This document shows positions 6,582 through 26,898 of a DNA stretch of 64,000 bases, piece by piece. Each line of letters begins with the position of its first letter. Positions within the stretch are counted from its first letter, which is position 1. The DNA lies in assembly GCA_021734325.1 (NCBI GenBank), contig JAIPJF010000007.1:1-64000 (forward strand), in the 5' to 3' direction. The translations under genes and the position numbers were made by a program. The DNA comes from Fidelibacterota bacterium. GTDB lineage: Bacteria > Fidelibacterota > UBA8477 > JABMPR01. The notes beneath the pieces were generated by a model that did not search any database, had not been told where the DNA came from, and saw nothing but the letters and a program-made list of their open reading frames with translations.

Positions 6582-7193
6582 ATGAAAATACTATTGGCCA
6601 CACAAAATAAACACAAGGTAGATGAGATATCCCGTCTGCTGAAGCCGTACGCGATTGATGTAGCCTCTCTGCTTGATTATCCTGAGCTAGGCGAGATCGT
6701 CGAGGATGGCGATTCTCTGGAGGCCAATGCACTTATCAAGGCAAAAGCCGGCTATACTCATTGTGGTCTCCCCACCCTCTCTGATGATACAGGACTTTTT
6801 GTTGATGCACTCGATGGCGCACCCGGTATTTATGCTGCTCGCTATGCTGGAGAGCAGGCAACCTATGATGATAATGTTGAAAAGATGCTCGGTGCAATGA
6901 AAACAGTACCTGAAGGAAAACGTCAGGCACAATTTCAAACGGTAGCCGTCTTCTATGATGGCAAGACGAGTATCTCTGCTGCAGGGGTTGTTGAGGGAAA
7001 CATTTCGCTCTCCAGGCAGGGTAATTCCGGTTTTGGATATGATCCCATCTTCATTGTCGATGACACTCAGAAAACCTATGCCCAGATGGACATATCTGAA
7101 AAGAACCGACTGAGCCATCGAAAAAGGGCTTTTGAATCCCTTCTTATAAAATTAAACCACACACATCAGGCTTTTAAAGTGGGGCTGCGATAA
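6582..7193 (+). CDS. rdgB: Non-canonical purine NTP pyrophosphatase (RdgB/HAM1)
   Basis: A 203-residue cytosolic house-cleaning enzyme of the HAM1/ITPase family, expected to hydrolyse dITP, ITP and XTP to monophosphates so they are not built into DNA or RNA. Family marks are all present: the N-terminal LLATQNKHKVDE nucleotide-binding start, the SDDTGLFVDALDGAPGIYAA core with acidic metal ligands, GYDPIF, and SEKNRLSHRKRA near the end. Length is normal for the family. It is preceded by a terminator and a hairpin-rich leader, and followed after 63 bases by sprA. Identification is firm; the link to sprA is probably positional only. Confidence 0.96.
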   Translation: MKILLATQNKHKVDEISRLLKPYAIDVASLLDYPELGEIVEDGDSLEANALIKAKAGYTHCGLPTLSDDTGLFVDALDGAPGIYAARYAGEQATYDDNVEKMLGAMKTVPEGKRQAQFQTVAVFYDGKTSISAAGVVEGNISLSRQGNSGFGYDPIFIVDDTQKTYAQMDISEKNRLSHRKRAFESLLIKLNHTHQAFKVGLR

Positions 7194-7256: not shown

Positions 7257-10200
7257 GTGAGAACGATTGTACTAAATATATTATCCTTAATTTTGCTCTG
7301 GGCACCTTCATTTGCCCAGGATGATGGCGCGCCTGCAATTGGAGTCAATTTTCCCGTAAAGGCAAAGCTTAAACAGCCTTCAAGCAGCCCCATATTCGAG
7401 CAGGAGAACCTGGGATTATATTTTCATGACAGTACGCTCATCATGGCGTCACCCATGGCGTCACCGAAGTTTATAAAACCATCGGTGCAAATGGATAGTA
7501 CGGCGACCTATTTCATCTTTTCCCAAAGGATGGATGGCACGGCAATCGGTATTCCCACGGTCATTGCCATAGATGCGTATGTTCAAATGAAATTGGTTCA
7601 AAATCAAAAGAAATTGTTCAGGAAAATTGCCACTGGCCACCTGCAGGCAGAGGAGGAAAGTAGCTCACAGTCGTTTGAACTCATTGGTGCAGACATCGCC
7701 GGTCAGCGTGTCTCCCTGAGGGTCAGGGGCAACGTGAATATTACGGGAAAACTGCGAAACGAAGATCGCTCAAAAACCACCAATGTAAACAATCAGAACC
7801 AATCCAATACTTTTCAGATCGAACAAAAGCAGGCGTTCAAGATAGAGGGGAAAATTGGCGATCGGATCAGCATTCAGGTAGATCAGGACAGTGAACGGGA
7901 CTTTGATTTCGAGAACAATATGGAGATCTACTACAACGGAAATGAAGATGAGATTATTCAGAGAATAGAAGCTGGTAACATTTCTCTTAATCTTCCCGGA
8001 ACAAAACTGGCCATGTTCTCCGGTCAAAATAATGGACTATTCGGTCTCAAAGCCCTGGCAAAGGTCGGACCGGTGGATATTACGGCGATTGCTTCCCTTG
8101 AAAGAGGTCGCAAAGAAAAGCTGTCTCTCAGTGGAAACTCCGAGTCTTCTGAAGTTACCATAGAGGATTATAACCGCCGAAGAAACACCTATTTTTATAT
8201 CAATAAATTCTACCGGAGAAAAGCTTATCCCCTCAACGCAGGGAGCTATATCCGCAGCAACCGCAGGATCAAATCAATCAAGGTCTATAAGTATACCAAC
8301 TACGCCCAGGATGACGAGAATAGCTATTTTGCCAAGATATACAACTATCCAGAAACCGATTCAACTGAAGTCACCAGTCGACGGGTGATCCAGCTGGTTC
8401 AAAATGAGGATTTTTACCTGGAGGAAGATCTGGGATTCATCCGGATGAGTTCTCCTGTCCAGGACAATGAAGTACTGGCTATCGCCTACGCTGATACATT
8501 CGATTTTGACAACGCCAGCAGTGAGTACAATCTGGCTGTCCCGGAGTATGATCTTTCGGGTGCTCCAGTACCCTATTATCAGGAGGGGAGTGATGTTGCC
8601 CTTGGAATTCCAGGTATCGCAGATACTCTCACCCTGAAGATGATCAAACCCGACAACGCTTTACCCGGGGATCCATCGTGGGACCTCGAATGGAAGAATG
8701 TATTCTACTTGAAATCAACGGGTATTAATACGGATGGTTTTGATCTGAAGATGAAACGCAGTCTGGGTGGAGATGAATCTGAATTGGCAGAGGACGGAAC
8801 CCCCTTTCTGCAACTATTTGGACTGGATCAAAAAGGAGTGGGAGCCGAACTCCAGCCGGATGGTGTGATCGACCTTGACTATGAGAATATACTGAATCTG
8901 AGGAATGGTGAATTGATCTTCCCCTTTCACTATCCATTTATGGATTCAGCCAAGGTTGAAGGTCAGCCGGCCTGGATGACCGATGCGCGGGGATTACCAC
9001 TTGGAAATGGTGGCAACCCAAATCTGGTTAAATATCCTGATTATCAGAGTACATCGTTTTATACAAATGCGGTACAAACATCAGATTATAGCAAGGACAG
9101 TAAATTCAGACTCTATGTCAGTTATGCCAATCAAAGCTCAACCTTTAATCTGGGGTTTAATGTCATCGAAGGATCTGAGGAGGTCACCCTGAATGGGGTG
9201 CTTCTTGAGCGTGGCGCCTCAAAGGACTATACCATTGATTATTTTACTGGCCAGTTGTTGATACTGAATGAATCAGCCTTGGCTCCAGGTGCAAATCTTG
9301 ATATCAAATATGAGCTGAATGAATTTTTCCAGCTTGACAAGAAGGTCATACTTGGTACCAGGGCAGAGATAAAATTTGGCGAGAATAAGAATTCATTCAT
9401 CGGGTTAAGCGCTATCTATTTTTCCAAGAGCAGTATTGACGAGAAGGTCCGTGTCGGTAAAGAACCCATGGAAAACTTCATTTGGGATTTGAACACAAAA
9501 ATTACCAGAGAATTGCCATGGTTGACCAGAGGGCTTGACTGGATGCCCCTCCTCAAAACAGATGCTCAGTCAAGCATAACACTTAGTGGTGAAATTGCCC
9601 AGGTTATTCCCAATCCAAACACCTCTGAGCAGAAAGCACTGGGAGATGTGGGTGTGGCCTATCTCGATGATTTTGAAGGTAGTCGTCGCGAAGCCCAGCT
9701 AAGTATCATCAGAGGTGGCTGGGGTCTGGCCTCTGTACCTGCTGATGGAAGCGGCAGAAGTAATAGAGAACGTGCGTATACCTACTGGTACAATCCATAT
9801 AATCGTATTCTTACCAACCAGATTTGGCCCAACAAGGAGACCAGCGCACAGGCTCAGAATGATGTGACGGATATTCTGTGGCTGAAAGTCATACCTGACT
9901 CATCATTCTCCGTCCAGGCAGGTGAAGCACCAGGAGAAGCCTGGGGAGGTATCATGCGTGCGCTCTCCTCTGGTTATTATGATCAGAGCGAATCCAAATT
10001 CCTTGAATTATGGGTTCGAGGTGATCAGGGTCGACTCCATCTCGATCTGGGGAGCATAAGTGAGGACCAACAGGACAAGGATCAAAAATGGACGGTGAAT
10101 ATACTGGAGCAAAATGTTGTCAAGGGGTATGGCAGCAAACCTGATACAGAGGATATCCCCTCCCAGGCATTCCCATCTGGTGACGGATTTGTCGTTGAAG

Positions 10201-13200
10201 AAGAGGACCTTGGTATCGATGGTCTACCCTACACCACACCAGTAGATATAGCTAAATATGGATATCATCATCCCTCCTGGGATCGCTATGAGTTTAATCC
10301 CAATGTCAGTCCCATTGACTATAGTCATATTAATGGGACGGAAGGTAATATCTCCATTGAGGGGGGAACTTATCCCAATACGGAAGATTTGAATAACGAC
10401 GGTGCGCTGGATACACGAAATGTCTACTTCACCATGGATATCGATCTGAACTCAGACGAGTATATAGCCGGTAGAACGCAGTACAGTGATGGTTCTGAGA
10501 CGGGTTGGAAATTAATCAGTATTCCACTGGCTGACTTTAAAGAAGTCGGTGAGGTTACACCGCTCTGGTCGCAGATCAAGTTTGCCCGCCTGTGGATGGA
10601 TGAAGTCCCTGCTGGTGGAGCAGGCCTTCAAATTGCAACCATAGATATTGTTGGAAATGAATGGCAGGAACGTGGGGTGTTCTCACGTTATGATGGGATG
10701 GAGACAATCGTCACGGATTCCTCTTCTGGAACCATGAATGTGATGGTGATCAACACGGAGGACAATCCCAGTCGCTATAATGCGGATGCCAATCCGGGAA
10801 GTTATTCTGCCCCACCAGCTGGTGTGCAGGGAATTTTGGACCCCCTCACACAGCTTCGTTCCAAAGAACAATCCCTTGTGATTCGAACGGATAATCTCTT
10901 GCCAGGATATACAGTGGTCACAGATAAACAGTTCAGCGGCTCAACAGCGAAAGATTTTATTCATTACAAGACCCTCAAGATGTTCATCCATGGCTGGGAT
11001 AAAAGCGAGGGGGGAGCCTATGAATCGGGATTTAGCAATTATATGGTGAATGATCAATCCATGCTGGAATTCTTCTTCCGCTTTGGGGAAACGGATAATG
11101 ATTTCTACGAGATTCGGAAACCCATCTATCCAGGCTGGGATGACAGAAATCATCTGGAAGTCAATATGGCCGACCTGGCGAATTACAAGCTGAGTCTGGA
11201 GGACTCGGTCTTTGTAATCTATCGGACTTTTGATCTTGGGAATGACATGGATAGCTCAGCTTACGACACCCTGTCCTGGGCCAATCTGCCGAATGATTTT
11301 AAATATGCTTCAAAGATCCTGCCCGATGGAAGCACCATTGCCGTGAAGGGCAAACCCTCTCTTTCGAGAGTCAAGATCCTCAAGACGGGATTTACAAATT
11401 TATCATCCGGGAGCATGAGCGGAGAGATCTGGCTTGACGAATTACGTGTGAGCGATGTTGAAAAAAATACCGCTACAGCTTATCGGGCGACCCTCAACAT
11501 GAAATTCGCCGATATTGCCACTTTGAACATGGATATCCAAAAGGATGATGCTGATTTCCATAACGTTCAAGAACAATTTGGACGTGGTCTCAATAGGGAG
11601 TCCGTTAACATCAGTGGGTCTTTTTCAGCCCATAAATTCCTGCCCCAATCGTGGGGATTAAATATTCCTGTCTCCATGTCCTATCAACAAAGAGAGGATC
11701 GTCCAAAATATATATCGGGTAGCGACATCAGGATCGAAGATCTGGACCCGGCACTCCAGGACACAATTGAGACTATGACAACTCGTAATGAATCCCGCAG
11801 TTGGAATATGTCCCTTTCCAAGAATGAAAAATCAGAGCACTGGCTGCCGAAATACACTATCGATAATATGAATCTGAAGATCGGGAGCAGCCAGAGCACT
11901 GCCTCCAATCCTCAGAAGAAAGAACAAAGCTCGGAAAAGATAGATGGAAGTTTTTCCTACAGATTGAATCTCGGGGATAAGTTCAAGACCGGGCCTTTCG
12001 GCTTTCTGAAATCGATACCCCTTGTTGGTGAGCAGGTCGCTGGGACTGAGATTGGATACCTGCCAAGTAATATTGGTTTCAATGGATCTGTGGTGGAGAA
12101 TAAATCTGCCAGCATCTATCGAAATCCAAATGCTATCCCACTTCCCAAGACTCATCAGCTCAGTATGACCCGATCGTATAATATTGACTGGAATTTACTA
12201 AGTACGCTGACAGCTCGATACAGTGCAAACCTCTCGAACAACCTGGATAGTCTGAAAAATAGAAAGAAGGACATTATCACCCAGGCTGATTTTGGACATC
12301 TGGGAAGCTTCAGGGAAAGCTACAATTTCAATTGGAATCCCAAAGGCATGAAATTGCTCTCACCATCCCTTACGTATGCTTCAAATTTTACGGCACTGGA
12401 CAACATCACTGAGACCCTCCCTGGCCTCAATCTGAATGTCAATGCCAACACGACGGCATCAATGTCAGTCACGCTCACGGATTGGTTTGGACTTGTTCAC
12501 ACACCTGAAAAGAAGACCCCGGTTTCAAAAACGCCAGCCACACAGCCTGTACGGGGAAGAGGCCGGGCAAAGGCTCCTGAGGTAAATGAGCCAGAAAAAG
12601 AGGTGCCAGAGGGAAAAAAAACGGATGAAGAAGATAAGCAGTCTGTCAGCCTGACAGACATGCTTGATTTCACTTATGAGATGTTCGATAAAATTGACCC
12701 AATTTCCGTCAATATTGCCCAGGGCCGCCAAACTTCCAGCTCACGCCAGATCGAATCCATTGAGAAAGATTCGACATATTTGGTACGTGGATCAACAGGA
12801 ATAGCTGATTCACTTGTGGTTACTACCATAGTAAATGAATTGAGCGTAAATGATATCGAATATGCCTACCGACTCGGTCTCAATTTGGGAGGGGACAAGT
12901 TGAATCACCCGGATGTCACCACTCCTGTAATTAATTCAGATAATTTTAACATGACCTTTCGTTCCGGCATAAAGCTCAGCAAAGAACTCAGCACCAAAAT
13001 TAGTTTTGGTGTTGGGCAGAGAAACTCCATGGCGAACAGGAGTCAAGGTAAAGTGGTAGTGAACAATATGGATTACTTCCCCAGCGGTGGTCTTTTCGGC
13101 GCACCAAAAGATGAGTCAACCTCCTTTGGAAATGCTGGAATTCCCTTTCCCACACTGACGATTCGATATGCCGGTTTGAATAATATTGAATGGCTTAAAA

Positions 13201-13790
13201 AGTATATTAACAACGCCAGTCTGGATATGAATTACACTGGAAAGGGAGAGGAATACAGCGAAAAGGGGATCTTAAACAAACAAGTCTACTCAATCTCTTT
13301 TTCACCCCTCATCGGGTTGAATATTCAGGGGAAAAAGGATATTAACGGGTCTGTGAATTACCGGGTAACAAAAAATATAAGCAACTCAATCAGTTTAGAT
13401 AAACTTACCACCTCCAATCAGACCTTCAACCAATCCCTGAATGCGAGTATTTCATACTCTCATAAGGGAGGACTGAAAATCCCATTACCCATGCTGGAGG
13501 ATAAGTATCTTGAGAACAAGATCGATTTCCGAATGGAAGTCAGCTATACCCATGAACAAGTTTATTCTGGTACGGAAGAAGATAAGGATCATGATGGAAT
13601 TACGACCATAAGTTTTGGTGAAGGTAATTACAATAAATCCTTTTCGCTTCGACCCAATATTCAATATAGCTTTACTGATAAGGTCTCCGGTAGTGTCTCC
13701 TATGAATATCGCATCATCGATACGCGAGCTATCGGACGTCAGGATATTTCGGATTTCCAATTTGGTGTTAATATTCAGATTAAGGGTTAG
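7257..13790 (+). CDS. sprA: SprA/Sov-type T9SS outer-membrane translocon
   Basis: A 2177-residue protein matching the giant SprA/Sov barrel through which T9SS clients cross the outer membrane. A signal peptide (core VLNILSLILLW, cleavage PSFA before QDD) follows the GTG start. The family hallmark GVAYLDDFEGSRREAQLS lies at about residues 799-816, followed by the GGWGLAS stretch. The long beta-rich chain with many aromatic-ended strands runs to a C-terminal strand ending FGVNIQIKG. Slightly shorter than the roughly 2400-2500 residues of Bacteroidetes homologues. Residues 1749-1797 are an unusual Pro/Lys/Glu-rich charged insertion, likely a flexible loop. The M28 cyclase gene starts 7 bases after the stop. 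A weak ribosome site leaves the exact start slightly open. Confidence 0.93.
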   Translation: MRTIVLNILSLILLWAPSFAQDDGAPAIGVNFPVKAKLKQPSSSPIFEQENLGLYFHDSTLIMASPMASPKFIKPSVQMDSTATYFIFSQRMDGTAIGIPTVIAIDAYVQMKLVQNQKKLFRKIATGHLQAEEESSSQSFELIGADIAGQRVSLRVRGNVNITGKLRNEDRSKTTNVNNQNQSNTFQIEQKQAFKIEGKIGDRISIQVDQDSERDFDFENNMEIYYNGNEDEIIQRIEAGNISLNLPGTKLAMFSGQNNGLFGLKALAKVGPVDITAIASLERGRKEKLSLSGNSESSEVTIEDYNRRRNTYFYINKFYRRKAYPLNAGSYIRSNRRIKSIKVYKYTNYAQDDENSYFAKIYNYPETDSTEVTSRRVIQLVQNEDFYLEEDLGFIRMSSPVQDNEVLAIAYADTFDFDNASSEYNLAVPEYDLSGAPVPYYQEGSDVALGIPGIADTLTLKMIKPDNALPGDPSWDLEWKNVFYLKSTGINTDGFDLKMKRSLGGDESELAEDGTPFLQLFGLDQKGVGAELQPDGVIDLDYENILNLRNGELIFPFHYPFMDSAKVEGQPAWMTDARGLPLGNGGNPNLVKYPDYQSTSFYTNAVQTSDYSKDSKFRLYVSYANQSSTFNLGFNVIEGSEEVTLNGVLLERGASKDYTIDYFTGQLLILNESALAPGANLDIKYELNEFFQLDKKVILGTRAEIKFGENKNSFIGLSAIYFSKSSIDEKVRVGKEPMENFIWDLNTKITRELPWLTRGLDWMPLLKTDAQSSITLSGEIAQVIPNPNTSEQKALGDVGVAYLDDFEGSRREAQLSIIRGGWGLASVPADGSGRSNRERAYTYWYNPYNRILTNQIWPNKETSAQAQNDVTDILWLKVIPDSSFSVQAGEAPGEAWGGIMRALSSGYYDQSESKFLELWVRGDQGRLHLDLGSISEDQQDKDQKWTVNILEQNVVKGYGSKPDTEDIPSQAFPSGDGFVVEEEDLGIDGLPYTTPVDIAKYGYHHPSWDRYEFNPNVSPIDYSHINGTEGNISIEGGTYPNTEDLNNDGALDTRNVYFTMDIDLNSDEYIAGRTQYSDGSETGWKLISIPLADFKEVGEVTPLWSQIKFARLWMDEVPAGGAGLQIATIDIVGNEWQERGVFSRYDGMETIVTDSSSGTMNVMVINTEDNPSRYNADANPGSYSAPPAGVQGILDPLTQLRSKEQSLVIRTDNLLPGYTVVTDKQFSGSTAKDFIHYKTLKMFIHGWDKSEGGAYESGFSNYMVNDQSMLEFFFRFGETDNDFYEIRKPIYPGWDDRNHLEVNMADLANYKLSLEDSVFVIYRTFDLGNDMDSSAYDTLSWANLPNDFKYASKILPDGSTIAVKGKPSLSRVKILKTGFTNLSSGSMSGEIWLDELRVSDVEKNTATAYRATLNMKFADIATLNMDIQKDDADFHNVQEQFGRGLNRESVNISGSFSAHKFLPQSWGLNIPVSMSYQQREDRPKYISGSDIRIEDLDPALQDTIETMTTRNESRSWNMSLSKNEKSEHWLPKYTIDNMNLKIGSSQSTASNPQKKEQSSEKIDGSFSYRLNLGDKFKTGPFGFLKSIPLVGEQVAGTEIGYLPSNIGFNGSVVENKSASIYRNPNAIPLPKTHQLSMTRSYNIDWNLLSTLTARYSANLSNNLDSLKNRKKDIITQADFGHLGSFRESYNFNWNPKGMKLLSPSLTYASNFTALDNITETLPGLNLNVNANTTASMSVTLTDWFGLVHTPEKKTPVSKTPATQPVRGRGRAKAPEVNEPEKEVPEGKKTDEEDKQSVSLTDMLDFTYEMFDKIDPISVNIAQGRQTSSSRQIESIEKDSTYLVRGSTGIADSLVVTTIVNELSVNDIEYAYRLGLNLGGDKLNHPDVTTPVINSDNFNMTFRSGIKLSKELSTKISFGVGQRNSMANRSQGKVVVNNMDYFPSGGLFGAPKDESTSFGNAGIPFPTLTIRYAGLNNIEWLKKYINNASLDMNYTGKGEEYSEKGILNKQVYSISFSPLIGLNIQGKKDINGSVNYRVTKNISNSISLDKLTTSNQTFNQSLNASISYSHKGGLKIPLPMLEDKYLENKIDFRMEVSYTHEQVYSGTEEDKDHDGITTISFGEGNYNKSFSLRPNIQYSFTDKVSGSVSYEYRIIDTRAIGRQDISDFQFGVNIQIKG

Positions 13791-13797
13791 AAATTTT

Positions 13798-14709
13798 ATG
13801 AATCGCCATATCACCATCCGAGTCGTATATTCCATTTTGTTCATGAGCTTTATCATACCGGCTCCAGCCCAGACGGGCTTCGACGCAGACCGTGCTTTCG
13901 ATGATCTGATTGCGCAATGCGATCTGGGAACCCGTGAGCCCAATTCGGTCGGGGCGAAAGCTGCAGTTAAATATTTTCAGAGCGTATTGGAGCCCCTGGC
14001 TGATGAATTCTACTTGCAGAATTTTGATATGCAGGATCCTTATGCAGACCGGCAACTGAACCTGACCAACATTATTGCTCGTTTTCAACCGGAAAAAACC
14101 CAGCGAATTATTCTGTGTGCCCATTGGGATACGAGACCTAGAGCGGAATACGATAGAACATATCCTGACAAGCCAATGCTTGGAGCCAATGATGGTGCCA
14201 GTGGCGTTGCGGTCCTCCTCGAAATAGCGAGAAACCTTCAGCGCAAAACGACTGATCCGGGAATTGACATTATTCTCTTTGATGGAGAAGACTATGGTAA
14301 ACCCCAGGATCTCCAGCACTATCTCCTTGGCAGTCGATATTATGTAAAACACCTGTATAAACCGGTGGCTCAACTGGTGATTTTGCTGGATATGGTGGGT
14401 GACGAGAATCTTACCATCAAGATCGATCCTGTCTCATATCAATCAGCACCGGGAGTGATGGAAGAGATATGGTCCCTGGCAGCAGATATCGGATATGATC
14501 AGTTTCGTCTGGAACTGGGTTCTGGCATGTACGATGACCATGTCCCGTTTATTGAAAGGGGGATCCCCGCCATAGATATTATCGATTTCGAATATCCCGG
14601 ACCGGATAATGCCTACTGGCATACACACAATGATACACCTGACAAGTGTAGTCCGGAAAGTCTCGAAGCAGTCGGAAACACGCTATTAATTTGGCTATAT
14701 CAACAATGA
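13798..14709 (+). CDS. M28-family glutaminyl-peptide cyclotransferase-like enzyme, exported
   Basis: A 303-residue exported zinc enzyme. The ATG at 13798 opens into a signal peptide ending PAPA before QTG. Candidate zinc ligands are D132 in GANDGASGV, D165 in FDGEDYG and H275 in YWHTHND; E164 would be the catalytic acid. Further stretches resemble animal and bacterial glutaminyl cyclases: AHWDTRP, the PQDL...LLGSRYY segment, and DDHVPFIERGIPAIDII. These enzymes turn N-terminal Gln into pyroglutamate. The gene follows sprA by 7 bases, and many exported proteins in this window, including this one, carry Gln right after the predicted cleavage site, which suggests they are its substrates. An M28 aminopeptidase is the alternative, but the DDH and PQD features favour the cyclase. 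Confidence 0.85.
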   Translation: MNRHITIRVVYSILFMSFIIPAPAQTGFDADRAFDDLIAQCDLGTREPNSVGAKAAVKYFQSVLEPLADEFYLQNFDMQDPYADRQLNLTNIIARFQPEKTQRIILCAHWDTRPRAEYDRTYPDKPMLGANDGASGVAVLLEIARNLQRKTTDPGIDIILFDGEDYGKPQDLQHYLLGSRYYVKHLYKPVAQLVILLDMVGDENLTIKIDPVSYQSAPGVMEEIWSLAADIGYDQFRLELGSGMYDDHVPFIERGIPAIDIIDFEYPGPDNAYWHTHNDTPDKCSPESLEAVGNTLLIWLYQQ

Positions 14710-14734: not shown

Positions 14735-15784
14735 ATGAGCAAAATATATGCGAATCCCTTCTTTTGGGGTGGGCCGGTGAATGGTAATACCTATCTGGCC
14801 AGACCAACTGAAGAGCAGCAGATCGCAACTGCTCTTGACAATCAGATCTCACTGGTCCTCTCAGGAAATCGCGGGACGGGAAAAACCAGTATCTTGCAAT
14901 CGTTGCTGGAAAAAAGACCTGAGGTGGCTATCTATCTGGACCTGCGTTTTGTCGTAAGCCTGGATACGCTTTATCATCTTTTATTGCAGGCTCTGGGAAA
15001 AGCATTTCCTACTATGGAAAGCATGTCGGAATACAAAACATTGCAAGAATCTGATCAGATCGAGAGTTTATCACCTGTCTTTGATTTTCTATATGAGACT
15101 GCCATTTTGGATAAGAAAAGGATCGTCATGGTCTGGGATGAATTTCACCACATCCTCAAACTGAAAGATAACACGATTGCAGAGATCAAGTCCAAGCTGA
15201 AAAGGCAGCCAGGTATTAATAATGTTTTTGTAAGTCACCGTGAAGATCTCATGCAAGAACTCTTTGGTAGCCCCAAAAACCATTTCTTGGATAAATATGA
15301 ACACCTAATACTACAGACGATGGACGGAAAGACGTTCAAGCAATATTTAACAAATCGCTTTCGTCGAATGGGTCTCAATGATTTTGATTTGGCTGCAGCA
15401 ATTCTGGAATTCACAACGGGCCTGCCACAATTGACCCAGAAAGTCGCCCATTCTCTTGCCCAATTATGGCTGGAAGGGAATACCACAAGTCTTCTGGACA
15501 GAACGATCAAAAAGATGCTCCAGGAGCACAACGCCCTGTTTACTGCACATTGGGATAATTTTGGAATGAATGAAAGAAGGCTTTTATTGGGTTTGGCAAG
15601 CGGGCACTCACGTCCCACTGAATTGGGCTTCATCGCTAAGTTTGGCCTGTCGGCAACAAGCACGGCCCACAACACGGTCATCAAATTGTTACGCGAAGGC
15701 TGGCTGACAAATAGAGACGATGGTTACTACCTTTATGACCCGCTATTTCTTAAATGGCTGCAGAACAGGAGTGGGATAGCTTGA
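14735..15784 (+). CDS. AAA-type ATPase with C-terminal winged helix (archaeal ATPase-like)
   Basis: A 349-residue cytosolic P-loop ATPase. Walker A is GNRGTGKT (residues 44-51) and Walker B is IVMVWDEF with D135-E136. The C-terminal 70 residues look like a winged helix (FIAKFGLSATSTAHNTVIKLLREGWL), as in the Pfam archaeal ATPase / Orc1-Cdc6-like group. The substrate is unknown; proteins of this architecture include DNA-binding and regulatory ATPases. It starts 25 bases after the cyclase gene and overlaps prmA by about 31 bases if prmA starts at its ATG, so it is probably translated from the same message. No signal peptide or membrane segment. Confidence 0.75.
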   Translation: MSKIYANPFFWGGPVNGNTYLARPTEEQQIATALDNQISLVLSGNRGTGKTSILQSLLEKRPEVAIYLDLRFVVSLDTLYHLLLQALGKAFPTMESMSEYKTLQESDQIESLSPVFDFLYETAILDKKRIVMVWDEFHHILKLKDNTIAEIKSKLKRQPGINNVFVSHREDLMQELFGSPKNHFLDKYEHLILQTMDGKTFKQYLTNRFRRMGLNDFDLAAAILEFTTGLPQLTQKVAHSLAQLWLEGNTTSLLDRTIKKMLQEHNALFTAHWDNFGMNERRLLLGLASGHSRPTELGFIAKFGLSATSTAHNTVIKLLREGWLTNRDDGYYLYDPLFLKWLQNRSGIA

Positions 15785-16629
15785 CGGATATCATCTCAAA
15801 GTGGATCTCGGTTGACATCAGCATCGCTGAAAAGATCAAAGAGATTGCCATGGATTATGCCCTTGCAGTTGGCGGGGCGGCTGTGGTTGAGAAGGATACT
15901 ACCTTTCAGGTTTCCTATCCCATGGATGACAAGGTCCATTCAATTATTCATGATTTGAAGGCATTTCTAATGGATCTGGATCCAGATGTGCTGATTCAGG
16001 AAACGGTCGTTTATCGCGAAAACTGGAATAAACAATGGCAAGACTTTTTCAAGCCAACACAGATCAGCGAGCAAATCATCATCCTCCCGGAGTGGGAAAA
16101 GGTTGAGGATTTCCCCCACAGGATAAAAACGAGGATCCGACCAGCCATGGCATTTGGTACGGGCACGCATGAAACCACCCAGTTATGTCTCCAAATATTG
16201 GAGGAGTCAATCCGCGAAAAAGATCACGTCCTGGATGTTGGGACTGGTAGTGGGATCCTGGGGATCACAGCACTTCATCTAGGGGCTGCAAACATCGATG
16301 CGATTGAGAACGATCCCCTGGCAGAAGAAAATATCCAGGACAATCTGAGCTTAAACGGGATAAGCAAAGGATTCAGGCTTCAGATCAGTGACCAGCCTAT
16401 CCTTCATCCTCCCTATGACCTCCTCGTGGTGAATATCATCAAAGCCAGACTTTTCCCCATATTGCCGAATTATTTTAATGTTGTTCGACCTGAAGGTCGT
16501 GTAATTATTTCCGGCTTGCTCATCGAAGAAGAGTCAGAGCTAAAAACGCTTTTAATGGGCTCAAGCTGGCGAATTATTAATACATACACAAAAAATGAAT
16601 GGATAGCTTTTTTATGCGAAGTAGATTGA
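15754..16629 (+). CDS. prmA: Ribosomal protein L11 methyltransferase
   Basis: A 291-residue SAM-dependent methyltransferase. The PrmA signature RPAMAFGTGTHETTQLCL precedes the SAM-binding motif VLDVGTGSGILGI; the acidic ENDP residue and the VVNII motif follow. PrmA trimethylates ribosomal protein L11. The ATG at 15754 overlaps the ATPase gene by 31 bases; a TTG at 15781, overlapping its stop as TTGA, is an alternative that would remove nine residues. The 3' end overlaps the next lipoprotein gene. Its place inside a secretion cluster seems accidental to its function. Confidence 0.93.
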   Translation: MAAEQEWDSLTDIISKWISVDISIAEKIKEIAMDYALAVGGAAVVEKDTTFQVSYPMDDKVHSIIHDLKAFLMDLDPDVLIQETVVYRENWNKQWQDFFKPTQISEQIIILPEWEKVEDFPHRIKTRIRPAMAFGTGTHETTQLCLQILEESIREKDHVLDVGTGSGILGITALHLGAANIDAIENDPLAEENIQDNLSLNGISKGFRLQISDQPILHPPYDLLVVNIIKARLFPILPNYFNVVRPEGRVIISGLLIEEESELKTLLMGSSWRIINTYTKNEWIAFLCEVD

Positions 16630-17522
16630 TATTATTACTACTGGTACTGCTGCTCCAGTATTGTGATCAAGCCCCAACGACGCTTGATTCTGAACCATTC
16701 ATTGAGAGAACTGAAAGTGCTGTTTTCAATACAGAACTTTCCAGCATTGAATTCGATTATCTGTCAGGGGAATTTTTCTTCACTGCTCTGGTGACAGGCC
16801 CGGAAGCCGTTCACCAGGTATCCCTATTGCTTTGGTCTGACAGTATCCAGACGGATTCCATCTTCCTTAATGATGCGGGCCTTGAAGGAGATATTATAGC
16901 CGAAGATGGAAATTATGATGGGAACTGGGTGCTTCCGGACAGTGTCCTTCTCTTACCGGATAGTCTCTTCGTCGAGTGGGTGGATCAGGTGTGGAACGTT
17001 AAGGTGACTGTTCTGGATATAAATATGGAGGAAATCTCACATCAGCAATCTTACCAACCAGAAGTTCCTGCTGCACCAGTCATAGAAAGCATCCATCATT
17101 TTGATACCCTCACGCTACGTTCAAATGCACTGGTTCTGGATACTTTGAGACTTGAGGTCAGCCACCCTAACGGATTGGATGAGATCAGGGATGTGAGCAT
17201 GATGTCAGAAAAACCGGATGGTTCCTTTGCCAATGATAGCACTGCCATCCCACTCTACGATGATGGTGGCAGGGAAATCTTTTTCACCTGGAATGGGATC
17301 GATTTTACCAGCGGCGATCAGGTGGCGAATGACGGGGTTTACAGTCTTTTACTCGCCCTGGATCCTACAACTCTTACCGGTACATATTACTGGACATTCA
17401 ATGCAAGGAGCTGGGTGGGCCTGGAAGCAAAAAGTCTTAAGGATTCCCTGGTTGTACTGAGTGCAGGTGGGTCTACGACAGCCATTGGTCCGCCAATACT
17501 GGGAAGGGGAGTTTTAAAATGA
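16614..17522 (+). CDS. Predicted lipoprotein, unknown function
   Basis: About 302 residues. The ATG at 16614 gives a short basic start, a Leu-rich core and a cysteine in LLLQYCDQ, read as a relaxed lipobox; an ATG at 16599 would add five residues. The rest has two Ig-like beta modules. The first includes LNDAGLEGDIIAEDGNYDG and the second DDGGREIFFTW...GDQVANDGVYSL, the acidic loops of calcium-binding beta domains seen in FCB surface proteins. It overlaps prmA by 16 bases and the next gene by ATGA, so it is translationally coupled to both. The lipobox is not ideal (Tyr before Cys), so lipidation is inferred. Confidence 0.65.
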   Translation: MRSRLILLLLVLLLQYCDQAPTTLDSEPFIERTESAVFNTELSSIEFDYLSGEFFFTALVTGPEAVHQVSLLLWSDSIQTDSIFLNDAGLEGDIIAEDGNYDGNWVLPDSVLLLPDSLFVEWVDQVWNVKVTVLDINMEEISHQQSYQPEVPAAPVIESIHHFDTLTLRSNALVLDTLRLEVSHPNGLDEIRDVSMMSEKPDGSFANDSTAIPLYDDGGREIFFTWNGIDFTSGDQVANDGVYSLLLALDPTTLTGTYYWTFNARSWVGLEAKSLKDSLVVLSAGGSTTAIGPPILGRGVLK

Positions 17523-19108
17523 AAAAGATTCTTGCTCCTCTCATACTCATCTTTGCAGTCTCCCTCCACGGGCAGTTAATGCGACCAACACAGTTCTCAC
17601 TAAGTGCCGCAGATACTGTCTATGAGGGTCTCATCGGGAGTAGCATTACCGATATTGATGGCTCTGGGAATAAAGTGTGGCTTGGTTCAGGTCATGGTCT
17701 TAGCGCCAGCTTTGATGGAGGGGAAACTTTCATTGGCTATAGTCGTCAATTCTCAGATCTCGGCCGAGGGGGTATTTCTGCCCTGGAAGTGTATGGGGAC
17801 ACGGTCTGGGTTGCCATGGGCTTTGATTCGACGACAGCGCTAGGTGATCTCAAGGCAGGTGGAGGGATCAGTCGTTCTGTTGATGGCGGGCAGACCTGGA
17901 CCTTTCTGGGACAACCCATGGACAGTTTGAGGGTCGATACCATCATTGCTGGCGATACGACATTTGCAACTTACTCTGAAATGGATCTCTGGGGTGTTAC
18001 GATTAAAACAGTTGACGTGGTCACACCGATCCAGAACATCACCTATGATCTGGCTTATGATGGCACGCGTCTCTGGGCGACTTCCTTTGGAGGTGGGTTG
18101 AGGGTTTCCAGTGATCTGGGTGATACCTGGAGACGGGTCATGCTTCCCTGGGATAATTTCAATAGTCTTGATTCGCTCACCATACATTCAATAAAAGCAG
18201 ACATCCTGAATGATCCAGAGAAATATGCCCTTGATCCGGTACGCTATTTAAATCACCTGGGGTTTTCAGTTAAGGCCTGGAATGACACCGTCTGGGTTGG
18301 GACCTCGGGAGGAGTAAACAGGTCAATTGATGGTGGAAAAAGCTGGCAGCATTTTCATTTTCAGAACTCGAATCTTTCTGGAAACTGGGTAATCGCTCTC
18401 AATCGTCAATTGATGGAGAATGGCAAGGAGCGCATGTGGGCCTCAACAGTGACCACTGGAGAAGGAGATATCACAGGGCTTAGCTTTTTTGAATCAGAGA
18501 TGGATTATTGGCGAGCCCCCTTATTGGGAATCAGTAAATCCTGGAATATTAGCTCAAACGCCAATTCCGTCTATTCTGCCACTGATGAGGGTTTGTGGAA
18601 GTCCAAAGATGGACTTCATTTTACCCTCTTGCCAAACTTTCACAATGCAGACTATTCTGAGGTTATTTATTCTGATGAGGTCTATTCCGTATTTTTTAAT
18701 GCCGATGGATCGCTCTGGGTAGGTACTGGTGACGGTTTGGCGATAAGTTATAATGATGGGCTTACCTGGAATGTTTTCAAGGCTCGGGTTGCAGATCCTG
18801 ATGATACCTACTATGCCTACCCCAATCCATTTACACCCCGCTACGACAAGGTCGTTGGTGGTCAGGGCAATTTGATCATTCGATTTGTTGCGAATCTGGG
18901 TGAAGAGATTACCATAACGGTTTTCGATTTCGCCATGCATACAGTCAAAAAGGTGGTTCAAGGGGGAACAGCCCATCTGGAAGGAGCTCAGGAACGCACC
19001 TGGAACGGTCGTAACGAACAGGGGTACCTGGTAGCAAACGGCACGTATTTTATCAGACTGGAAATTGGATCTGAAGTTCAGTGGACGAAAGTGATGGTGA
19101 TAAATTGA
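17519..19108 (+). CDS. Secreted BNR-repeat beta-propeller with C-terminal sorting-type domain
   Basis: 529 residues. Signal peptide MKKILAPLILIFAVSLHG with Gln as the next residue. Several Asp-box (BNR) motifs mark a propeller: SFDGGETF, SVDGGQTW, SDLGDTW, SIDGGKSW, SYNDGLTW. The C-terminal 90 residues (YAYPNPFTPR, then ITVFDFAMHTVKKV and a closing NGTYFIRLE) match the FlgD-Ig / T9SS sorting fold, though the core differs from the classic YPNPFNP. Start ATG overlaps the upstream stop as ATGA and the stop overlaps the next TTG as TTGA, so it belongs to a coupled block with a lipoprotein and two PorV-like barrels. A PorZ-like role (propeller in the attachment complex) is a speculative parallel. 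Confidence 0.78.
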   Translation: MKKILAPLILIFAVSLHGQLMRPTQFSLSAADTVYEGLIGSSITDIDGSGNKVWLGSGHGLSASFDGGETFIGYSRQFSDLGRGGISALEVYGDTVWVAMGFDSTTALGDLKAGGGISRSVDGGQTWTFLGQPMDSLRVDTIIAGDTTFATYSEMDLWGVTIKTVDVVTPIQNITYDLAYDGTRLWATSFGGGLRVSSDLGDTWRRVMLPWDNFNSLDSLTIHSIKADILNDPEKYALDPVRYLNHLGFSVKAWNDTVWVGTSGGVNRSIDGGKSWQHFHFQNSNLSGNWVIALNRQLMENGKERMWASTVTTGEGDITGLSFFESEMDYWRAPLLGISKSWNISSNANSVYSATDEGLWKSKDGLHFTLLPNFHNADYSEVIYSDEVYSVFFNADGSLWVGTGDGLAISYNDGLTWNVFKARVADPDDTYYAYPNPFTPRYDKVVGGQGNLIIRFVANLGEEITITVFDFAMHTVKKVVQGGTAHLEGAQERTWNGRNEQGYLVANGTYFIRLEIGSEVQWTKVMVIN

Positions 19109-20109
19109 GGACATTTCTTTTTAAGCACAAAGCACGCAGAAAAGGCGTAGCCTCAATTGGGTTTGTATATCTGACCGCCATTATCCTGTTTTTAATTTTA
19201 AACCAGCCACTTTTTGCATCAAGACTGGGTGGCTTTAGCGGAACCGCTTCACGCTTTACTGCTGATCCGATTGCAGCAGGAACGGGAGGGATCACTTTAT
19301 TTCACAGTACCTCAACAAACAGCTATACTCAAAATCCGTCCTCGCTTTCACTTGGTAGTGACCGCCGATTTGATGCCGGTATGGTGCGTCTGTCGCTTGA
19401 CCGATTCATATATACGATGAGCAGCAGTTTCCCCTTGCCCCCAACGGCCCATTTGGCCATTGGTCTAATTGCTGCAGGAACAAATAATATCCAGGCCAGG
19501 GATTCACGGGGATATTATGCTGGGGAATTGAATGATACAGAGATGAGTTATCTGGTCTCATTTTCCAACCGCTTTTCTGAAAAATTGTCCTTTGGTCTTG
19601 CTTTAAAGTATTTAGCCAAGGAGATGATTTCTGAGGAAGACTGGTTTGATCTCAAGGGAACTGGATTTGGAGCCGGAATTGGAATGTCGTTCAGTCCCGT
19701 GGAGGGAAGTACCTTTGCTTTGGCTCTAAAGGATTGGAACAGTAGCTATACCTGGAAGACTCAGGAACAGAACCTCTATGAGCAGGGTAGCAATTATCAG
19801 GACCAATTTCCCATGAGTATATCCTGGGGCTGGTTACAGGATCTTCCTTCCTTCACCCTTGCCTTTGAGCATGACTATTATTTTATTGGAGAAAATATCT
19901 TCAGGACGGCTATCATGTGGAATGGAATCAAAAATTTGCACGTAAATGCAGGACTTAGTTATGAAGATGATACTTTTTTCTCTGGTGCCAGCGCCCGTTA
20001 TAGGTTTGGTCTGAAGCAACGTTACCCCATGCATCTGGATCTGGGACTGCGTTCTGGCGTTAGCGGAGAAGGTCTGCGAAACTATATTGGTTGGGGGTTA
20101 ACATTCTAA
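19105..20109 (+). CDS. PorV-like / UPF0164-type outer-membrane barrel
   Basis: About 334 residues from TTG 19105, which overlaps the preceding stop (TTGA); a GTG at 19081 is possible. A hydrophobic segment (LTAIILFLILNQPLFA) serves as signal sequence. The mature start (FTADPIAAGTGGITLFHS...YTQNPSSLS) matches the PorV/PorQ/FadL-like pattern in which a small-residue stretch is followed by an N-P pair. The remainder alternates polar and hydrophobic residues in strands and ends in a strand with terminal Phe (GWGLTF), the usual outer-membrane barrel signal. In T9SS, PorV shuttles substrates from SprA to the attachment complex. Which partner this copy serves is unknown. Confidence 0.72.
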   Translation: MRTFLFKHKARRKGVASIGFVYLTAIILFLILNQPLFASRLGGFSGTASRFTADPIAAGTGGITLFHSTSTNSYTQNPSSLSLGSDRRFDAGMVRLSLDRFIYTMSSSFPLPPTAHLAIGLIAAGTNNIQARDSRGYYAGELNDTEMSYLVSFSNRFSEKLSFGLALKYLAKEMISEEDWFDLKGTGFGAGIGMSFSPVEGSTFALALKDWNSSYTWKTQEQNLYEQGSNYQDQFPMSISWGWLQDLPSFTLAFEHDYYFIGENIFRTAIMWNGIKNLHVNAGLSYEDDTFFSGASARYRFGLKQRYPMHLDLGLRSGVSGEGLRNYIGWGLTF

Positions 20110-20939
20110 TGCTGAAAAGAATATTCATCATATTAAGTATTTCTGGAATGATCATGGGGCAAAGCAGTTTTGATATATTAAACACGCCCACTGATTCAAG
20201 GGACGCTGCTCTGGGAATCAGTTTGAACCCAACCGTGAAAGCAACTCGGATACTCACAGATCCAGAGCATCGGCTCACCTTCAACGTCTGGAATTGGGTC
20301 GCGGATATTCAGGGCATCTATATCGGCCTGGGCATGCAAAACACCCATCTGAGTCTACAGGCCCTCCACAGTGGAGAACTTGAATATCGGGATGAGGTGC
20401 CAACCGTTGATCCCCTCAGCACTTTTGAATACGCCTTGTTTAATATTGGTGTTTCCCACGCCCGCCAATGGAATAACATCTATCTGGGACTCGGTGGGGA
20501 GATAATCTATGAACGGACCCTTAATGCATCATCAACGGGATTATCCATGAATGTGGACGCAGCATATGACCTGAATGAAAGGCTTTTGCTGAGCGGTGGA
20601 CTTCGTCACTGGGGAATCAGCGGCAAGCTGGATGAAGAAAACACAACTTTACCGGCTGAAGCCTGGATAGGTTTGGATGCTGGCATGAGTAAATTCAGTA
20701 TTTTTACGGAAATCAATAGTGGCTCATTTCCCCTGGCAGTGGGTATGAGCTACCCAATTCTTGAGGGCTTTGAGCTCAGTGCCGGTACCCAGCTTGAATT
20801 CTCAGATCCTCAAATAAAAATTCATCCCTCTACTGGTTTCAGGCTCGCATTAACAAACTTTGAACTGGGCTACACCATTTACCAACTGGATCATAATTTA
20901 GGACCACGTCATTATTTTAGCTTATATTGGGCTTACTAA
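20109..20939 (+). CDS. PorV/PorQ-like outer-membrane barrel
   Basis: 276 residues. ATG at 20109 overlaps the previous stop by one base (TAATG). Signal peptide MLKRIFIILSISGMIMG followed by Gln. The start FDILNTPTDSRDAALG resembles the PorV/PorQ N-terminal hairpin (FLxxPxxARxxALGG). Strand-rich sequence ends in an aromatic residue (FSLYWAY), typical of outer-membrane barrels. Length is slightly below that of known PorQ (around 330 residues), so PorQ itself is a guess. Last gene of the tightly overlapping block; the aminotransferase starts 14 bases later. Confidence 0.68.
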   Translation: MLKRIFIILSISGMIMGQSSFDILNTPTDSRDAALGISLNPTVKATRILTDPEHRLTFNVWNWVADIQGIYIGLGMQNTHLSLQALHSGELEYRDEVPTVDPLSTFEYALFNIGVSHARQWNNIYLGLGGEIIYERTLNASSTGLSMNVDAAYDLNERLLLSGGLRHWGISGKLDEENTTLPAEAWIGLDAGMSKFSIFTEINSGSFPLAVGMSYPILEGFELSAGTQLEFSDPQIKIHPSTGFRLALTNFELGYTIYQLDHNLGPRHYFSLYWAY

Positions 20940-24693: not shown

Positions 24694-26898
24694 ATGACCG
24701 AATGTTATCTTTGCCAAATGCGGCTACTCAAAAATGCGCCAATTTTAGTTCTTCTTATTGTCCTCATAAATCCGGTTCAAGCCCAATTACACAAGGTGGC
24801 TGTAGACGATTATGACAACTATACTATCGTCGGTGAACTCGGTCTGACTGTGACCAATTTTGGAATTCTTGGCGAAGGCTGGAACAATCCTGATCAACCT
24901 TCTGCCCGCTACAAACAATACGGGACTGAGCGGGAAATGGTCGAACTCATGAGTTATGGCGGTCTGTGGATCGGTGGTGTCCCTGTCGTTGACGGAGTAG
25001 ACCAGCTTGCCCGAGTCTCCACGGCCATTATTGATAATGCTTTTGACTATGGTGAAGAAGGATTCGAGTTCAGTACATCCTCCTCAGCTGGGGATACCAT
25101 TCACACCAGATCGACCATTTCCTCTGCCGGCACCTCCTCTCTGGCCAGTTATTTTTCCCTGGATGCAGTCAGTCAACAAGACCTCCTGGCGGATTTTAAC
25201 GATTACTCTCTGAATGTCTACAGGCATGAACCGCTGGGAATCGAGGTCCACCTCGAATCCTACGCTTGGAGTCATTCCTTTATGGAATCCTTTGTGATTC
25301 TGGACTATACCATCACAAACAAGAGTAATCTGGCCGATACGTCTGGAGGCGGTTGGGACATCAAGAATCTATTTGCCGGAATCTGGGCCGATGCCTCAGT
25401 CAATAACATGAATTACAAAAGCCGCTGGGAGCCAGGCTCCGGCTTTAGCTGGTACGATAACATTAACGCCTTTGAGCGTTCCAGCAATGCCAATGGCTAC
25501 CCAAGAAATATAGGCTATCAATATGATTACGACGGGGATGATGGATGGTCCAGAGCCTACTTCGGTGTCATGGCCCTTCATGGTCCAAACCGCAGATCCA
25601 AATATGATACAGATCCAAATGGTGACTGGTTTACCTATTATAATCAATGGAAATGGGGAGGGGAGGATCATCCGGCCATCGCGCAGTTTAACATGCCCCA
25701 ATCAGATACGGCCAGATATTCAAAGCTTTCCTCATCCCCCTTTTATGATCGAACCTTTATTCAGGACTATGAGAGCGAGCCCTGGCTGAATGATCCAGAT
25801 TCCTGGATGATGCTGGTTTCTGCTGGACCATTTGGAAGCCAGTCAAGCGGCGGCGATTTTATTCTCCCTGTTAGTGGCTCGATCAAGGTGGTATTTGCCA
25901 TACTGGGTGCCCCCTGGTCCCACCAGGGATCCACCAACGACTCTCCCAGAAGACAGGACCTCCTGAAGAACGCCGATTGGGCCCAAAAGGCATTTAATGG
26001 TGAGGATGTAAACGGAAATTCTGTCCTCGATCCCGGTGAGGATCTGGATCAGAATGGGATCCTGGATCGCTACATTGTCCCGGAGCCACCACCCTCGCCT
26101 GACATGGCCCTGATCGCCGAGGATCAGAAGGTAACACTATACTGGAACAACAGACCGGAATTCACCCTCGATCCTGTATCCCGTAAACATGATTTTGCCG
26201 GATATCGGATATATGGGAGCGCCAAGACCAGCGGTAATACAGAACAATATACCCTCCTGACAGACTTCGATCTTATCGGAGATGAAATTGGGTATGATAC
26301 AGGTTTTGATCTGGTCCGCATTACCGATGAGACAGGAGCTCAGGACTCTGTCAATATTCAAGGCCGTTATTATCACTATCGTTGGGTCAACGAAGGGGTC
26401 AAGAATGGTTGGCCAGCGAAAACAACGTATTCCATCACAGCTTATGATAGTGGTGACAAAAACACAGGTCTTGAAAGTCTGGAAAGCTCTCGAAATGAAA
26501 ACCGCAGAAGTGTCATACCCGGTACTCCGCCCACGGATGAAATGATCTTAAGACCAGCCTCGGTCTATCCGAATCCATATCGGGTTCAGGCCAAATGGGA
26601 TGGGACAGGTCAACGCAACCGTTTGATCTGGTTTCGCAATCTTCCCAGTTCCGCCATTGTAAGAATTTACACTCTTGGTGGAGACCTGATCGAAGAATTG
26701 GACCATGAGGCGGACACTTACCAGGGAGGCGATATATCCATTCTTCCAGAAGGTAATACCGTATTCTCAGGCGGAGAACACGCCTGGGACCTCATTAGCA
26801 AATATGATGAACCCATTGCTACCGGTATGTATGTTTTTACAGTTGAGAATTTGGAAAATAATGAAGTTCAAGTCGGTAAATTTTTAGTGATTAAATAA
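24694..26898 (+). CDS. Large secreted protein with FN3-like region and C-terminal sorting-type domain
   Basis: 734 residues. Start taken at ATG 24694 (AGG directly upstream); an ATG at 24718 just before the hydrophobic core is also possible. Signal peptide core ILVLLIVLINPVQA, next residue Gln. Residues about 30-430 are a beta-rich region I do not recognise. Around residues 435-462 are two acidic repeats (DVNGNSVLDPGEDLDQNGIL) like EF-hand or dockerin calcium loops. An FN3-like domain follows (AGYRIYGS...YHYRWV), then a C-terminal domain with VYPNPYRVQ, VRIYTLGGDLIEEL and GMYVFTVEN, a T9SS/FlgD-like fold. The next gene, for a secreted cytochrome, begins 13 bases after the stop. Confidence 0.72.
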   Translation: MTECYLCQMRLLKNAPILVLLIVLINPVQAQLHKVAVDDYDNYTIVGELGLTVTNFGILGEGWNNPDQPSARYKQYGTEREMVELMSYGGLWIGGVPVVDGVDQLARVSTAIIDNAFDYGEEGFEFSTSSSAGDTIHTRSTISSAGTSSLASYFSLDAVSQQDLLADFNDYSLNVYRHEPLGIEVHLESYAWSHSFMESFVILDYTITNKSNLADTSGGGWDIKNLFAGIWADASVNNMNYKSRWEPGSGFSWYDNINAFERSSNANGYPRNIGYQYDYDGDDGWSRAYFGVMALHGPNRRSKYDTDPNGDWFTYYNQWKWGGEDHPAIAQFNMPQSDTARYSKLSSSPFYDRTFIQDYESEPWLNDPDSWMMLVSAGPFGSQSSGGDFILPVSGSIKVVFAILGAPWSHQGSTNDSPRRQDLLKNADWAQKAFNGEDVNGNSVLDPGEDLDQNGILDRYIVPEPPPSPDMALIAEDQKVTLYWNNRPEFTLDPVSRKHDFAGYRIYGSAKTSGNTEQYTLLTDFDLIGDEIGYDTGFDLVRITDETGAQDSVNIQGRYYHYRWVNEGVKNGWPAKTTYSITAYDSGDKNTGLESLESSRNENRRSVIPGTPPTDEMILRPASVYPNPYRVQAKWDGTGQRNRLIWFRNLPSSAIVRIYTLGGDLIEELDHEADTYQGGDISILPEGNTVFSGGEHAWDLISKYDEPIATGMYVFTVENLENNEVQVGKFLVIK

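Follow-up and report, generated by a model that had tools for sequence, protein, structure and literature searches.

A putative glutaminyl cyclase encoded directly downstream of sprA and a preference for glutamine after signal peptides in the Neomarinimicrobiota

Introduction

In the Q-rule system of the Bacteroidetes, glutamine (Gln) directly follows the signal peptidase I cleavage site of many exported proteins (position +1), and this bias goes together with a periplasmic glutaminyl cyclase (QC) of the animal type and with the type IX secretion system (T9SS) (PMC5837995; PMC10653852). An organism is said to follow the rule if its genome-wide Q-value, obtained with SignalP/LipoP, is above 48%. 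The modification to pyroglutamate has been called exclusive to the Bacteroidetes (Szczesniak et al. 2023, PMC10653852), and +1 Gln has been glimpsed outside that phylum, in Ignavibacterium album (77%) and Chloroherpeton (55%). The QCs are predicted lipoproteins in about 80% of cases in the Bacteroidetes and in 34% outside. Here we analyze a stretch of 64,000 nucleotides (the window; G000:C9:1-64000) from a genome (G000; 2.93 Mb, 84% complete) whose close relatives have records titled Candidatus Neomarinimicrobiota (Marinimicrobia), in which a putative QC gene of the M28 family stands directly behind sprA, the gene for the T9SS outer-membrane translocon. We consider it highly probable that a Q-rule export-maturation system is present in the Neomarinimicrobiota, with the M28 enzyme behind sprA as its periplasmic type II QC. 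The other genomes and the loci compared are referred to by G and L numbers, respectively; genes with two coordinates lie on the plus strand of the window.

Results

The M28 protein resembles type II glutaminyl cyclases

The sprA gene (7257..13790) encodes a protein that matches TIGR04189 with an E-value of 6.5e-235 (783 bits, cut-off 200), and the predicted mature N-terminus of SprA is itself a Gln (SFA^QDD). The ATG of the M28 gene (P0001, 13798..14709, 303 amino acids) follows after 7 bases, as the original prediction had stated. The best PDB matches of its product have E-values from 6e-53 to 1e-51, among them 3gux (6e-53), 6qro (1e-52; named glutamine cyclotransferase in PDB) and 3tc8, and a match at 1e-15 was obtained to the glutaminyl-peptide cyclotransferase 2afm, which we take to be the human QC. 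By sequence, the protein is thus closest to the type II (animal-type) QCs of the Bacteroidetes. A predicted model has a mean pLDDT of 92.4 and eight strands, in keeping with the published description. The signal peptide predicted from the sequence and its relatives (13798..13869, APA^QTG) has no lipobox that we could see.

The residues expected at a QC active site are also present. Aspartate, glycine and glutamate residues D132-G133, E164 and D165 (codons within 14191..14292), which by homology comprise zinc ligands and the proton shuttle, D198 (14389..14391) and W274-H275 (14617..14622; by eye the equivalents of Trp298-His299 in PgQC, the His being a zinc ligand) do not vary among the 31 aligned QCs (A1), which come from several phyla. 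Judged by eye, D132, E164, D165, D198 and H275 correspond to D159, E201, E202, D248 and H330 of the human enzyme; the roles of these sites in type II QCs have been described (PMC5837995; PMC7948796), and an Asp in place of human E202 is usual among the Bacteroidetes QCs (PMC5837995). It has been proposed that QCs can be told from aminopeptidases by an Asp-Gly after the first ligand and by Trp298 (PgQC numbering), where aminopeptidases have Asn/Asp and Tyr (PMC7948796). With D132-G133 and W274, the window protein agrees with the bacterial QCs, unlike the aminopeptidases. The assignment as a QC, originally made from features read in the sequence, is thereby supported by homology.

Glutamine follows predicted cleavage sites in the window and beyond

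Plausible signal peptidase I sites were chosen by eye (hand reading) in the window, which bore out the earlier count of nine genes with +1 Gln (7257, 13798, 17519, 20109, 24694, 26912, 31432, 34191 and 53645) and four without (929, 2274, 19105 and 38250). Five genes read as lipoproteins (16599, 29912, 35150, 38342- and 50694) had rightly been left out of that count. Compared to a background of 3.7% Gln, 9 of 13 corresponds to p ~8e-11, with the sites picked by eye.

The preference extends past the window, as the original prediction implied. T9SS in G000 is represented by the above-cut-off SprA and by 75 matches to sorting domains (cargos); we used the N-terminal stretches of the 71 cargos outside the window and a sample of about 0.4 Mb of the genome. 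Hand reading of the cargos gave Gln in 32 and another residue in 27, i.e., 32/59 decidable cases (three were undecided, L219, L244 and L262, and nine had no usable N-terminus or start). A blind rule that never looks at position +1 picked Gln in 26/63 cargos vs 1/42 in E. coli; at least one permissible site was followed by Gln in 34/63, and the next-ranked residue, Thr, reached 19/63. In a per-site test, Gln after permissible sites was compared to Gln at other positions of the same stretch, so that no cleavage site has to be chosen. Here, the cargos had 35/182 vs 11/362 (odds ratio 7.6, p 7e-10), the 0.4 Mb sample had an odds ratio of 3.1 (p 1e-4), and E. coli had 7/155 vs 9/220 (odds ratio 1.1).

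The same test was applied to genomes and QC loci from other groups. The odds ratios were 2.9 in the Calditrichota and 4.0 in a phylum with records named Latescibacterota bin70 and Krumholzibacteriia (hereafter the Krumholzibacteriia-type phylum; p 0.05 each, two genomes each), and 3.2 for the two pooled (p 0.006). Ignavibacteria-type loci had an odds ratio of 2.8, with 5/25 blind picks. Related genes recur within the groups taken from QC loci, so the counts in these groups are not independent.

Four other signal-peptide callers were tried and rejected. The first admitted membrane anchors (Gln+1 in 19/73 for G000, 2/54 for E. coli), a stricter version still mispicked sites (15/43 and 1/34 at a score of 4.5), a site model trained by expectation maximization (EM) drifted to an acidic residue at -1 (18/74 for G000, 11/82 for other Marinimicrobia, 3/41 for E. 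coli), and a caller adjusted to ten E. coli N-termini mispicked barrel proteins (13/37 for G000 and 0/17 for E. coli at a threshold of 5.0).

The sprA-QC gene order recurs in several phyla

A QC match at an E-value of 1e-20 or better was found in 221 of the 245 genomes of the phylum (G000 included) and in 91 of the 94 good ones, and sprA was found in 98/100 genomes, G000 included. The proposed conservation of the gene order in related genomes was confirmed: among the 94 relatives with both matches among the matches listed, QC is located directly downstream of sprA on the same strand in 84, while in the remaining ten the two matches are on different contigs and in none are they apart on one contig. 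A closer look added three of these ten to the pairing (G007, G013 and, with a start piece of QC behind sprA, G079), as well as G005 from outside the 94.

Outside the phylum, 23 of 29 Calditrichota loci have a SprA-like frame immediately before QC (21 by open reading frame, plus L326 and L339); of the other six, four have another gene upstream, one is at a contig edge and one has none. In the Krumholzibacteriia-type phylum, with 71 QC-containing genomes, the pair was found in 28 of the best 30 loci, including L358 by a short piece only and L374 via a second-step query. QC is also behind sprA in the Tariuqbacter locus L093. In 56 other loci, mostly from Ignavibacteria, Bacteroidota, Balneolota and Poribacteria, no SprA-like reading frame was found immediately before QC; among them are L062, which begins just 183 bases before QC, and L098. 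A quick QC tree, moderately supported in places, largely places the sequences together by phylum and requires six changes of linkage state.

Several observations were made along the way. The QC of L093 is close to that of L098, which is not behind sprA, so the linkage may have changed recently. The four Calditrichota-phylum loci with another gene upstream (L341-L344) form a QC clade of their own; by eye, this gene looked HAD-like, but the 70-residue tail that was scanned matched no Pfam family and we leave it unnamed. The QC of L103 falls among Ignavibacteria-type QCs although its record is titled Ectothiorhodospiraceae, and the contig may be misassigned. In the Poribacteria (L055, L070-L072, L078 and kin; L392-L397 in G269), QC is accompanied by a SprA-like protein that stays under the TIGR04189 cut-off.

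An apparent enzyme replacement in one relative

No M28 QC match at 1e-20 was obtained for three of the 94 good genomes: G131, G139 and, we infer, G043. The sprA block of G043 (L157) reads Ham1-sprA-prmA-lipoprotein-BNR-PorV, so that, compared with the order in L046, QC alone is absent up to the PorV-like gene. G043 is also the only one of the 245 genomes with a strong match to the plant-type (type I) QC family (PF05096, E 3e-88). This gene is unlinked to the sprA block, its product is unrelated in sequence to the M28 QC, and the PDB neighbors are 3nol (E 5e-71), 3mbr and 2faw. Weak PF05096 matches in G070 and G035 (frames of 538-540 residues) pass the cut-off with frame neighbors, and both of these genomes have the M28 QC.

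The Gln bias is kept in G043. For the best 40 of its 109 cargos, blind picks gave +1 Gln in 11/36 (10/34 after dropping two lipoprotein-like rows) and the per-site odds ratio was 10.4 (p 3e-5); a broader sample gave 2.5 (p 0.03). The pairing of sprA and QC is kept across several phyla, yet the Gln bias can do without it. In P. gingivalis, the plant-type NsQC has been reported to replace the native QC with normal growth, whereas a second plant-type enzyme, AiQC, gave no strain. Taken together, the replacement in G043 and the NsQC swap suggest that the window gene probably serves in Gln cyclization and not in some other M28 chemistry.

Genes around the sprA-QC pair

The pair is part of a conserved block that starts with a gene of the Ham1/ITPase family (6582..7193; PF01725, E 8e-61), found at the same place in L031, L046 and L157 of G043. 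Behind QC follow an AAA ATPase (14735..15784; PF13401), prmA (15754..16629; TIGR00406, 189 bits, cut-off 183), a predicted lipoprotein with a choice-of-anchor X domain (16599..17522; NF041940), a BNR/FlgD-like exported protein with +1 Gln (17519..19108, LHG^QLM) and a PorV-like outer-membrane protein with +1 Ser (19105..20109; NF033709, E 1.9e-10, below cut-off). The last of these closes the block that is common with the Calditrichota. In L046 the order is Ham1-sprA-QC-prmA-choice-anchor X-BNR/FlgD-PorV-like; it is kept from sprA onward in the Calditrichota loci L047 and L051, with the choice-anchor X gene undetected in L051, so that sprA-QC-prmA-BNR-PorV-like is common to the Marinimicrobia and the Calditrichota. 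Only loci from the window's genus (L031, L034-L036, L038, L040-L043) have the AAA ATPase between QC and prmA. It was not found there in L046, L047, L051 or L157, and is probably an insertion into an older operon.

The other genes with +1 Gln encode two further exported proteins, identified by hand reading (20109..20939, IMG^QSS; 24694..26898, VQA^QLH), a T9SS cargo with a sorting domain (26912..29788, VIA^QTV), a TonB-dependent receptor-like protein (31432..34191, AYS^QST), a PorV/PorQ family protein (34191..35162, TLA^QGN; NF033709, 178.9 bits, cut-off 90) and a DUF5723/PorV-related protein (53645..55018, AFG^QAH). Positions 28-342 hold the tail of another T9SS sorting-domain protein (match C9:85-327).

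Discussion

In the system that we propose, proteins would be exported by Sec and cleaved by signal peptidase I in front of Gln, as the sequence bias suggests for many of them, including T9SS cargos. The periplasmic type II QC would then turn the +1 Gln into pyroglutamate, to which homology, the site residues and the replacement in G043 all point, after which the proteins would be inserted or exported by the T9SS. The cap would most likely shield the exported proteins from aminopeptidases, the benefit that has been proposed for pyroglutamate in Porphyromonas gingivalis. The distance of 7 bases to sprA makes joint transcription and translation of QC and the translocon gene probable.

Several observations weigh against this proposal, some of them about the enzyme and others about the bias. 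The M28 fold also houses aminopeptidases with common metal ligands, and the window protein might be a periplasmic zinc aminopeptidase, with +1 Gln as an unrelated preference of signal peptidase I. Its Pfam label is just Peptidase M28, two of its three weak NCBIfam matches are aminopeptidases (all three far below cut-off), and several of the close PDB matches were deposited as exopeptidase or leucine aminopeptidase. Furthermore, PgQC Phe294, described as conserved throughout the type II QCs (PMC7948796), has no counterpart in the window protein, where GPDNA (268-272) precedes YWH; by eye, a counterpart is present in A1 only in L091, L097, L106, L108 and L110 from the Bacteroidota/Balneolota. 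PgTrp193 is apparently replaced by Tyr and PgAsp132 by Glu (E117), also by eye. The Tyr is shared with the Chitinophaga locus L108, and the bacteroidal Arg128 and Pro129 are kept as R113 and P114 (by eye). We nevertheless regard an aminopeptidase as improbable: 3tc8 and 4fuu, first named aminopeptidases, have been proposed for renaming as QCs and 3gux is described as having all QC hallmarks (Taudte et al. 2021, PMC7948796), 6qro carries the name of a cyclotransferase, D132-G133 and W274 match the QCs, and a type I QC is present in G043, where the M28 gene is missing. Admittedly, the replacement in G043 is a single event, and the probability of its co-occurrence by chance among the good genomes is about 3 in 94; this figure is weak alone and has weight because the QC gap is in an otherwise kept operon. 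As to the bias, the blind rule gave Gln in only 3/17 window candidates, which take in membrane anchors and mispicked sites and do not include 24694, with Gln after some permissible site in 8/17. It gave only 20/81 in the G000 genome sample, false signal peptides included, and the last of the rejected callers (threshold 5.0) gave G043 only 1/19. Nine other Marinimicrobia genomes were weaker (12/89 blind picks, odds ratio 2.1, p 0.009; 4.2 under a narrower site rule), and the Poribacteria were mixed, with an odds ratio of 0.8 in the G269 sample and of 4.4 (p 0.07; 5/49 vs 0/147, p 8e-4, under the narrower rule) in QC-neighborhood loci, many of them from related strains. One might argue that the excess of Gln is an artefact of cleavage sites chosen by eye, as blind picks are lower than hand reading in both the cargos (26/63 vs 32/59) and the window. 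However, the per-site test separates the cargos from E. coli with no choice of site at all, and we find this explanation very hard to believe. The mean Q-value reported for the Bacteroidetes with SignalP (71%) is above our automated rates, and our blind rule is low in the Bacteroidota/Balneolota loci too (8/58, odds ratio 2.5).

It is more difficult to say what the gene order means. The QC and the Q-rule may both be real while the neighborhood of sprA is an old conserved block with no functional link to type IX secretion, and we would give this explanation an even chance. Two genes with cytoplasmic roles, Ham1 and prmA, belong to the block as well, non-cargo proteins likewise show +1 Gln, the bias is kept in G043 despite its unlinked QC, and it has been argued that pyroglutamate does not control the T9SS (Bochtler 2018, PMC5837995). 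Conversely, the spacing is 0-9 bases in 34 of the 45 loci measured (the same genomes being included twice), the pair stands at four separate places of the QC tree, and it was found with no other part of the block detected (L059 and L074; L093 is short). The cyclase is therefore tied to the translocon gene by gene order, as originally predicted, whereas a functional tie does not follow, given the shared operon with Ham1 and prmA and the bias kept in G043. A more speculative hypothesis, which we consider somewhat less likely than not, is that sprA-QC is an ancestral operon of the Fibrobacteres-Chlorobi-Bacteroidetes (FCB) group, in which capping and type IX secretion formed one export-and-protect module before the Bacteroidota split off, and that the Bacteroidota and Ignavibacteriota later separated the genes. 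If so, the Q-rule would be an old FCB trait, strong in some lineages and weak or lost elsewhere.

A preference for +1 Gln in another FCB phylum had been proposed for this DNA, and this part stands, the relatives being titled Neomarinimicrobiota; a first sight outside the Bacteroidetes it is not, given Ignavibacterium album and Chloroherpeton. Among the matches listed, literature searches found no sprA-QC operon in print (the search for sprA also takes longer words), the papers listed on gliding make no mention of glutaminyl cyclase, nothing was found on Marinimicrobia with pyroglutamate, and a search for Marinimicrobia with type IX secretion found only work on esterases. Among the matches listed, the literature naming glutaminyl cyclase consisted, by titles, of the 2018 paper and work on P. 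gingivalis or oral bacteria. An enzyme present throughout a phylum, together with a +1 Gln bias and a sprA-QC operon that recurs in other phyla, would make the modification a wider FCB feature and could serve as its marker among uncultured bacteria. The swap in G043, as a test provided by nature, suggests that what is kept is the modification and not one particular enzyme, and it also renders the question of a link to the T9SS testable.

The Q-rule system known from the Bacteroidetes has, we propose, a counterpart in a second FCB phylum, where it comes with a sprA-QC operon. The system resembles that of the Bacteroidetes in its Gln after signal peptidase I sites, its predicted periplasmic animal-type QC and its T9SS, and the neighbor of QC is an above-cut-off member of the SprA/Sov translocon family (TIGR04189). 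It differs in the phylum, in the location of QC behind sprA and in that, within the window's genus, the QC itself looks like a substrate of signal peptidase I, with a +1 Gln of its own, and not like a lipoprotein. Compared with PgQC and the Tannerella forsythia enzyme TfQC (PMC7948796), the window QC shares, by homology, the fold class, the Asp-Asp-His zinc ligands, the Asp-Gly step, the Trp before the His ligand and the Arg-Pro of the entrance loop, and it departs from them at Phe294, Trp193 and Asp132 (by eye). The type I QC of G043, in contrast, belongs to a beta-propeller family (PMC7948796) of unrelated sequence, and is predicted to carry out the same reaction in a genome from which the M28 enzyme is absent.

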